Made by a program: the position numbers and the translations under genes | Notes under the pieces: model-generated | Database searches by the model: none | Seen by the model: only the letters and a program-made list of their open reading frames with translations | Told to the model about the DNA's origin: nothing | Virus record (IMG/VR): IMGVR_UViG_3300042385_000520 | Location: 1-24,168 of that record | Source: a virus | DNA: 24,168 bases | Direction: 5' to 3' (one strand) | Part shown: piece by piece, positions 8,423 through 10,001 of the stretch | Position numbering within the stretch: position 1 is the stretch's first letter | Layout: each line of letters begins with the position of its first letter

Positions 8423-8438
8423 GTCATAGTTGTTTTGC

Positions 8439-8637
8439 GTGACGCTAATGTACAAAAATTTGGTGTTTTGTGACGATTTGTGACGATGTTTAAATTCTAT
8501 CGTCACGCTTCTATCCTTTACCTGTATTGACTTTCAGTCAAAGCGTGACGATGTGACGATAAAAAAACTAAAAATTTTAAAATAAAAATAAGGGTCTTAA
8601 TAGGTTCGGTATAATAAGAGATGTGTCATATCGTCAC
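8439..8637. other. Candidate replication origin: GTGACGAT iterons, inverted repeat and AT-rich tract
   Basis: The 203-bp gap between the helicase gene and the DnaA-like gene carries the octamer GTGACGAT at 8470-8477, 8480-8487, 8545-8552 and 8553-8560, its complement at 8499-8506 and 8630-8637, and a variant GTGACGCT at 8439-8446. Units at 8499-8510 and 8541-8552 form a perfect 12-bp inverted repeat around a smaller TTGACT-TTC-AGTCAA hairpin (8527-8541). An almost pure A/T tract follows at 8559-8591, as expected of an unwinding element. Neighbouring genes encode a DnaA-like DNA-binding protein and the replicative helicase. A regulatory operator for the same protein is the main alternative. 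Confidence 0.65.
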
Positions 8638-9015
8638 AACTCTCTCCTCATACACCCCTCTCTTGATTCTGCTCTTGATGATTTTCAAGGTGGCATATGA
8701 GTTGCATTTGAGGATATCTGCAATCAAGTCTCTTGCTGATTCCTTGTCAACATGGTCCAATAAAAATCGATATTCAGCGATGCATTCAGTGTACAGCTTG
8801 TCATTTGTGCTGGTCAACCACTCATGTGTGCGTAGTGAGTGCAGCACTGTTGCGTGGTCGCGTTTGAACATTTGACCAATATCCTTGAGAGTCATGCCTG
8901 TTGATCGAAGCTCATGCATCAGGAATGCTCTGCGATATACCAACTCATGCGTGCGGTCCTTGGAAGATAGCCTATCTCGCTGAATTAGTTCTTGTATTTT
9001 GTCAAATTGGTTCAT
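8626..9015 (-). CDS. DnaA domain IV-only DNA-binding protein
   Basis: A 129-residue protein whose first 65 residues match only the DNA-binding domain IV of the initiator DnaA: IQELIQRDRLSSKDRTHELVYRRAFLMHELRSTGMTLKDIGQMFKRDHATVLHSLR. The KRDHATVLHSL stretch (about 49-59) is the DnaA signature loop-helix (consensus RDHTTVLHA) that contacts the DnaA box. The ATPase (domain III) and the helicase-loading N-terminus are absent; the rest is a helical tail (LLDHVDKESARDLIADIL). It ends inside the last iteron copy of the adjacent repeat region. The likely role is binding those repeats, as initiator or repressor. It overlaps the methyltransferase gene by 4 nt. Confidence 0.8.
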   Translation of the reverse strand: MNQFDKIQELIQRDRLSSKDRTHELVYRRAFLMHELRSTGMTLKDIGQMFKRDHATVLHSLRTHEWLTSTNDKLYTECIAEYRFLLDHVDKESARDLIADILKCNSYATLKIIKSRIKRGVYEERVVTI

Positions 9016-10001
9016 AATAAATTTTTTAGTATTTTGTAAAGTACATTGACAACAATTGAGTTGCCAGCTTGCTTGTATGCTTGAGAGTCAGACACCTTCC
9101 AAGTGAATGTATCTGGGAAGTCCATAAGTCTGAAGCATTCTCGTGGTGTGAATCTGCGGATTTCTCCTGATTTGAAAGTTCCTTGATTACAAGCGGTGTC
9201 TAAAGTTTGAGCCACTCCTTTTCCTACTCGGCCTCTTCTGGTTTCACTATTCGGAACACTAAAATTTATAGAATCACCTTCAGTAGCTTCCTCATATCCC
9301 TTGGATGTGGCTGATTTTACCTTGAGATTGTCAACAAAAATTTCATTTATTGTTTCATAATTCAAAAAATACTTACCATCCACAGCACCCTCCAGCACAT
9401 CCTTCAATCGCTTGGTCAAATGCTCTTCTCGTGGGAATTGGAATTTGTTATCTTGATCGTCTCTGATGCCAACCAAGAAAACTCGCTCACGATTTTGCGG
9501 AACACCATGATGCTTTGCGTTCAGGACTTGCCAATACAAATGGTAAGGAACGGAGCTTTCATATGGAAAAAGAACTGGCACTCCATTGACTGATTTGCCT
9601 CCCAGCATATTTACCCACTCCTGGAATGTTTTGCCACCATCATCAGAGAGCAATCCTTTGACATTCTCGAATATGAAAAATCTCGGCTTGTTTACTTGAA
9701 TAAACTCGTGTGAATTGAAAAACAAGATACCTCGCTTGTCATCCTTACCGAGTCGCTTGCCAGCTAATGAGAATGCTTGACAAGGCGGTGATGTCATATA
9801 AATATCCAATGACTCTGATGGAATTGCTCGGTCATATACGTTGGTTGGATAGTATTCAGGTTCACCATAGTTGTGGATGAACGTATTACGAACGAACTTG
9901 TCCATATCACAGGCAAATACCTCTTTGTATTCAACACCTAATCGAATCAGTGCTTGATTGAATGCGCCTACTCCGCTGAAGTCAGAGCCAACCCTTAACA
10001 T
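9012..10001 (-). CDS. C5-cytosine DNA methyltransferase
   Basis: The enzyme adds a methyl group to carbon 5 of cytosine. All main motifs of the Dcm family are in order: I FSGVGAF (8-14), IV SPPCQAFS (71-78, catalytic C74), VI ENVKG (112-116), VIII QNRERVFLVG (169-178), IX RRFTPRECFRLMDFP and X QAGNSIVV near the end. The region between VIII and IX, with SKGYEEATEGDSI and TLDTACNQG, is the target-recognition part, of a type often seen in phage orphan enzymes. At 329 residues it is full length. No restriction nuclease is nearby, so anti-restriction is the likely use. Confidence 0.95.
   Translation of the reverse strand: MLRVGSDFSGVGAFNQALIRLGVEYKEVFACDMDKFVRNTFIHNYGEPEYYPTNVYDRAIPSESLDIYMTSPPCQAFSLAGKRLGKDDKRGILFFNSHEFIQVNKPRFFIFENVKGLLSDDGGKTFQEWVNMLGGKSVNGVPVLFPYESSVPYHLYWQVLNAKHHGVPQNRERVFLVGIRDDQDNKFQFPREEHLTKRLKDVLEGAVDGKYFLNYETINEIFVDNLKVKSATSKGYEEATEGDSINFSVPNSETRRGRVGKGVAQTLDTACNQGTFKSGEIRRFTPRECFRLMDFPDTFTWKVSDSQAYKQAGNSIVVNVLYKILKNLL

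Follow-up and report, generated by a model that had tools for sequence, protein, structure and literature searches.

A stand-alone DnaA domain IV protein beside a conserved box array as a candidate phage replication origin

DnaA domain IV is best known as a component of an initiator that is driven by ATP. In the virus record IMG/VR IMGVR_UViG_3300042385_000520, a 129-aa protein that matches only this domain of DnaA (hereafter the mini-DnaA) is encoded between a methyltransferase gene and an array of short boxes, and the array is followed by a primase-helicase gene. What would such a protein do at this locus, and what reads the boxes? The window that was analysed is the 24,168-base stretch at positions 1-24,168 of this record. 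The explanation that we prefer, with a probability of about 0.55, is that the array is the origin and control region of the primase-helicase module and would be read by the mini-DnaA.

Genes and boxes in the window

The minus-strand genes are ordered by transcription as a C5 methyltransferase, the mini-DnaA, a 203-bp gap, and a 799-aa primase-helicase (Table 1). The methyltransferase and mini-DnaA genes overlap by 4 bp (ATGA, 9012-9015), which suggests translational coupling. The helicase N-terminus is an AEP primase domain. In the profile search, BT4734-like_N was matched above its cut-off (3.5e-21) and PrimPol_Db was matched at 7.4e-22, yet under its curated cut-off. The initial annotation had placed a PrimPol-SF3 helicase gene after the repeats. 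The primase part of that name agrees with the profiles. For the SF3 part, a Walker A motif (NGGSGKS), a Walker B-like sequence (LAFDDV), and ITTNY with the TTN motif typical of SF3 were seen by eye, and the SF3 profiles gave no match.

The mini-DnaA is matched by the Pfam family Bac_DnaA_C with an E-value of 1.6e-11 and 44.5 bits against a gathering cut-off of 31.5, and the profile scores of several of its relatives fall under that cut-off. The NCBIfam DnaA equivalog model is matched only at its C-terminal end (positions 361-428 of 437), therefore domains I-III, with the N-terminal domain I and the AAA+ domain III, are absent from the 129-aa protein. An AlphaFold2 model built from 30 relatives has a pLDDT of 85.5. 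Its nearest PDB fold in Foldseek is 3pvp, the DnaA DNA-binding domain on box DNA (probability 1.00, TM 0.65 by target length). DnaA DNA-binding domains with box DNA give the sole high-probability PDB matches over the domain, with Foldseek E-values of 0.4-0.6 that are not significant alone. The model also matches many phage proteins in BFVD that are named 'DnaA C-terminal'. These comparisons support the 129-aa protein as a relative of DnaA domain IV.

The family alignment exhibits invariant residues in the helix-turn-helix (H54 and V57) and in the C-terminal helical segment (D100, C104, K118, G120, and Y122), thus the protein consists of domain IV plus an extension. The earlier claim that the protein fits domain IV only holds for the match to DnaA, and it overlooked the extra conserved helical segment at residues ~73-119. 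In E. coli DnaA, TnCACA is read by the recognition helix and TTA by Arg399 (PMC5742627). When the family is aligned with full-length DnaAs, this minor-groove Arg399 faces R29 (R or K in the family) and His434 faces H54. Two candidate traits of the mini-DnaA were rejected. A replacement of Arg399 by Tyr was discarded since the alignment with real DnaAs sets Arg399 against the conserved R29, and a shortened helix-turn-helix loop is common to many bacterial DnaAs.

The box GTGACGAT (reverse complement ATCGTCAC) occurs exactly six times in the whole window, all within 8470-8637, against a mean of 0.77 and a maximum of 3 in 100 dinucleotide shuffles. The count of six exact boxes in either orientation and one variant, as given in the initial annotation, is therefore confirmed. 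The gap, taken as the stretch between the 129-aa stop codon and the conserved helicase ATG, spans 8423-8625. It contains five of the exact boxes and the variant; the sixth box, formerly also assigned to the gap, falls within the 129-aa coding sequence at its 3' end. As first described, a perfect inverted repeat of 12 bp and a nearly pure A/T tract are present, and the classical DnaA box TTATNCACA is absent from the window. The inverted repeat consists of two boxes and their flanks.

Table 1. Positions of the genes, boxes, and other features of the locus in the window.
Feature	Positions	Strand	Remarks
PrimPol-SF3-type primase-helicase, 799 aa	6023-8422	-	BT4734-like_N and PrimPol_Db profiles; PHROG 28855 at 1e-158; SF3 motifs by eye only
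Box array	8423-8637	.	Consists of the 203-bp gap and the mini-DnaA 3' end; holds one variant and six exact ATCGTCAC/GTGACGAT
Variant box GTGACGCT	8439-8446	+	Read from the sequence
Box GTGACGAT	8470-8477	+	Exact copy
Box GTGACGAT	8480-8487	+	Exact copy; 10 bp from the preceding box
Box GTGACGAT	8499-8506	-	Exact copy; within the left arm of the inverted repeat (8499-8510)
Box GTGACGAT	8545-8552	+	Exact copy; within the right arm of the inverted repeat (8541-8552)
Box GTGACGAT	8553-8560	+	Exact copy; 8 bp from the preceding box
A/T tract, nearly pure	about 8559-8592	.	Candidate unwinding element; putative function
Box GTGACGAT	8630-8637	-	Sixth exact copy; within the final mini-DnaA codons
Mini-DnaA gene, 129 aa	8626-9015	-	DnaA domain IV at residues ~1-70; helical C-terminal extension at ~73-119
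C5 cytosine methyltransferase	9012-10001	-	Pfam DNA_methylase at 3.6e-66; neighbour that the model does not need

Conservation of the array and its linkage to the mini-DnaA

Protein searches of IMG/VR identified 13 mini-DnaA loci and 80 helicase loci, and the array is kept in dozens of IMG/VR phages. The commonest order among relatives is mini-DnaA, a gap of 202-221 bp, and helicase. Nearly all relatives have the PrimPol-SF3 gene after the array. The lack of repeats beside orthologues in related phages had been named as evidence that would speak against a phage replication system; the array is conserved there. Among 39 distinct arrays beside a mini-DnaA, box positions are almost fixed within groups. 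The window group (9 arrays) exhibits 98.3% identity to its reference in the box cores and 80.8% in the spacers, and the group referenced to L037 (28 arrays) exhibits 99.6% and 80.9%, respectively. Only 0-1 of 202-210 shifted box masks reached the observed core conservation. This alignment-based test was used in place of the sequence logo, where the 2.0 bits at GTCAC are circular because the boxes were chosen by GTCAC.

The majority box is A-T-C-G-T-C-A-C-(G/A). When it is set against TTATnCACA on the CAC core, CAC is kept and the TTAT side is changed, so only the CAC half is common. The box can also be written as a DnaA box with two inserted bases (TTATC-GT-CACA). That form agrees with the majority letters, most such positions carry little information, and it was set aside as a curiosity.

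Identical contig ends of 61-127 bases are present in five genomes (G001, G004, G007, G010, and G013) and suggest that this phage group has complete genomes of ~29-30 kb.

A single box pair of 16 bases was searched for by DNA alone, and 81 stretches were obtained. Multi-box stretches, defined by at least five GTCAC/GTGAC in 250 bases, were found at 64 of 77 new loci. A mini-DnaA, counted if it was at most 2.5 kb away, is near the array in 56 of these 64 stretches; 44 of the 56 are on contigs new by name, and the contigs of the other 12 had come up before in the protein searches. The eight stretches where the mini-DnaA is missing consist of three arrays at a contig end (L377, L391, and L429), four unrelated GC-rich stretches (L367, L378, L422, and L423), and one true array (L363). 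That the boxes are a chance repeat with no function is hardly credible. No evidence in its support was found, and it is refuted by the shuffle test, by the conservation of boxes over spacers, and by the co-occurrence with the mini-DnaA in a search that used DNA only.

The mini-DnaAs recovered by the DNA-only search are diverse. The same GTCAC core adjoins mini-DnaAs that are only ~27-54% identical to that of the window and carry helices such as HHALVIH, DHSTVVY, KHCTVLY, and AHCTVVH. The initial annotation had asked whether repeat and recognition helix co-vary. Such co-variation is not supported, since the box stays the same as the protein drifts. The linkage extends to the diverged phage L393, where nine boxes are flanked by a mini-DnaA and a BT4734-type primase.

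The array is not universal among phage mini-DnaAs, since clustered repeats were absent near the mini-DnaAs of all four phages tested, namely Harreka_1, mumin9-1, Skadi-5, and HTVC034P (Olleya, Flavobacterium, and Pelagibacter phages). At two other loci, L194 (3980-4971) and L195, a distant mini-DnaA is directly before genes for DUF6291 and a DnaB_C-like ATPase, not PrimPol, and short TGATAATGAT repeats are within the DUF6291 gene. The TTATCC repeats by the faecal record L444 were rejected as a related case because the DnaA-like protein of L444 has 383 aa and is thus not a mini-DnaA.

Several loci exhibit inserted genes or structured elements. In L397 and L433, a 282-aa gene with no family assigned is between the mini-DnaA and the array, about 74-919 bases upstream of the box pair, and the array still adjoins the helicase. 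At 14 loci, an inserted NUMOD4-HNH endonuclease gene (Pfam HNH_3 at 2.7e-15 for the copy in L044) separates the array from the start of the helicase; the boxes upstream persist and appear more degenerate. A structured RNA-like element is present between the array and the HNH gene in L033 (1231-1340) and at 11 other loci. It consists of a 5-bp hairpin and a terminator-like hairpin, the loops of which pair with each other over 8 bp, and a promoter-like motif TATTTTTG/TATATTTG is just upstream. Among its 11 distinct sequences, all 24 pairs hold in 100% of cells, 13 of them with changes on both sides, and a one-base slide lowers pairing to ~52%. This element is possibly a transcription attenuator. 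At nine loci with no HNH gene, a second element of similar design follows the array and precedes the helicase start. An upstream GATGCAG(T) can pair there with the loop sequence (A)CTGCATC of a terminator-like hairpin that ends in T7. The folding of the L365 type beats 200 of 200 shuffles and that of the L361 type is not outstanding. No Rfam match was obtained for the HNH-side elements of L017 and L044 or for the second elements of L361, L365, and L375.

Roles proposed for the array and its reader

Ten genomes or large contigs were searched for boxes elsewhere. Outside the densest 300 bp, each has zero or one exact ATCGTCAC, and one-mismatch sites are around the shuffle level or modestly higher. 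In G005, which carries the HNH insertion, the densest stretch differed from the array and the sole exact site outside it belongs to the array region. The array is therefore the sole box cluster in each genome. Cumulative GC skew, proposed earlier as a way to map the origin, did not mark the array with a consistent turn, and it was dropped from the origin evidence as uninformative.

These results bear on the explanation that the array is an operator. The mini-DnaA would then be a GafY-like transcription regulator of the helicase or early operon, perhaps also of itself, and replication would start elsewhere. We regard this explanation as unlikely, and a regulatory role is still a serious rival because GafY, the best characterised protein with DnaA domain IV only, activates transcription. 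GafY is a DnaA domain IV homologue that binds the sigma factor RpoD and activates transcription of a phage-like gene transfer agent, together with GafZ and IHF, at about 20 chromosomal regions (PMC9632790, PMC11150451). The boxes extend into the presumed helicase leader, and GC skew lends the origin no support. However, a GafY-like activator with about 20 regions would be expected to look different from an array at one locus per genome, and no excess of boxes at other promoters was found outside the array in the ten genomes. An array of 5-12 boxes in both orientations over 200-400 bp also exceeds the usual operator, and the replicative primase-helicase remains the neighbour although the surrounding gene set changes.

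The reader of the boxes may also be a protein other than the mini-DnaA. The P4 alpha protein, a primase-helicase, binds its own iteron origin. By analogy, the array would be an iteron origin bound by the primase-helicase or a host protein, and the mini-DnaA would be an accessory neighbour. The true array of L363 (G017) points this way. It consists of twelve copies of the same box (about 30369-30770 in G017) before a D5/VapE-type SF3 helicase (31174-32640), and no PF08299 or mini-DnaA match is present in the 64-kb contig. Either the reader is too diverged to be detected there, or the box is readable by something else. Locus L014 points the same way: its mini-DnaA is 33% identical to that of the window, yet its helicase is 97% identical and its array is of the same type. 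By sequence, the mini-DnaA gene of L014 seems to have been exchanged as a module. Against this explanation, the helicase of L363 has no detectable similarity to that of the window, so one helicase family does not explain both arrays; other relatives of the L363 helicase were not found in IMG/VR. The array is also absent from eighty helicase homologues of the ctfjg026 clade, which are ~40% identical to the helicase of the window, so the helicase does not always come with the array. Given also that a mini-DnaA is almost always beside the array, a reader of another kind is quite improbable.

The reading as an origin is favoured by the boxes in both orientations, the A/T tract, and the adjoining primase-helicase, and likewise by the diverged phage L393. 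The L363 array with no detectable mini-DnaA, the GC skew with no consistent turn at the array, the role of GafY as an activator, and the phage mini-DnaAs with no repeat cluster nearby count against it. In the origin model that we prefer, the stand-alone domain IV would bind ATCGTCAC(G/A) boxes, and its helix-turn-helix would contact the CAC side. Several mini-DnaA molecules would flank the A/T tract and occupy boxes of both orientations. Their occupancy would mark the origin and may bend the DNA. The helical C-terminal extension would recruit or position the co-encoded PrimPol-SF3 helicase, which would then melt and prime the DNA. Box binding would probably also tune helicase transcription because the boxes cover the presumed helicase leader, and self-regulation is likely.

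A more specific proposal is made tentatively. A stand-alone DnaA domain IV would have become an initiator of phage replication. It would mark the origin through a recoded box of nine bases, ATCGTCAC(G/A), and would have no AAA+ ATPase of its own. Unwinding would be handed to the PrimPol-SF3 helicase, and the pairing of protein and box would be kept across mini-DnaAs that are ~27-54% identical. If true, origin marking would be separated from origin opening by a small reader-only family that has a changed box and a primase-helicase encoded alongside, and a change in DnaA specificity would become directly testable.

Comparison with known systems

The module resembles DnaA and oriC in its homologous domain IV, in short boxes in both orientations by an A/T-rich stretch, and in the common CAC core. 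It differs in that the mini-DnaA has no domains I-III, hence neither the AAA+ ATPase nor the helicase-loading domain. It also differs in the changed TTAT side of its box, in the extra C-terminal helices, and in the PrimPol-helicase gene that follows.

The gene transfer agent activators GafY (Caulobacter) and GafA (by its N-terminal domain) are similar to the mini-DnaA as DnaA domain IV proteins of a phage-like element with no ATPase. Unlike GafY, the phage has one multi-box locus by a primase-helicase, and no GafZ-like partner was noticed.

Iteron origins with a dedicated reader, such as RepA of the PLE satellites of Vibrio cholerae and plasmid Rep, also have repeats by the reader gene at one locus and likely self-regulation. 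In agreement with this type, the repeats of the phage are short, conserved, and clustered next to the presumed reader gene. However, the presumed phage reader, with its predicted binding, is a relative of DnaA domain IV and not RepA_N or another Rep.

The pRN1 operon (orf56 repressor and orf904 PrimPol-helicase) likewise encodes a small DNA-binding protein just before a PrimPol-helicase, although the small protein of the phage module is from another family. The proposed origin of pRN1 is a stem-loop downstream of the helicase, and iterons were not found (PMC4234260).

Phage 'DnaA C-terminal' proteins of Olleya phage Harreka_1, the Flavobacterium mumin phages, Pelagibacter phages Skadi and HTVC034P, and Nonlabens phage P12024L share the Pfam family or predicted fold and are of similar size. 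The mini-DnaA of the window differs from those of the four phages tested in having clustered repeats nearby. Many phage 'DnaA C-terminal' annotations have no tested function, and one group of them now gains a concrete candidate DNA target. No description of a phage DnaA domain IV protein together with an iteron array of a recoded box and a PrimPol-helicase was found in the open-access literature that was searched. Phage DnaA domain IV proteins and iteron origins are already known separately; what appears to be new is that they occur together, with a recoded box and next to a PrimPol-helicase.
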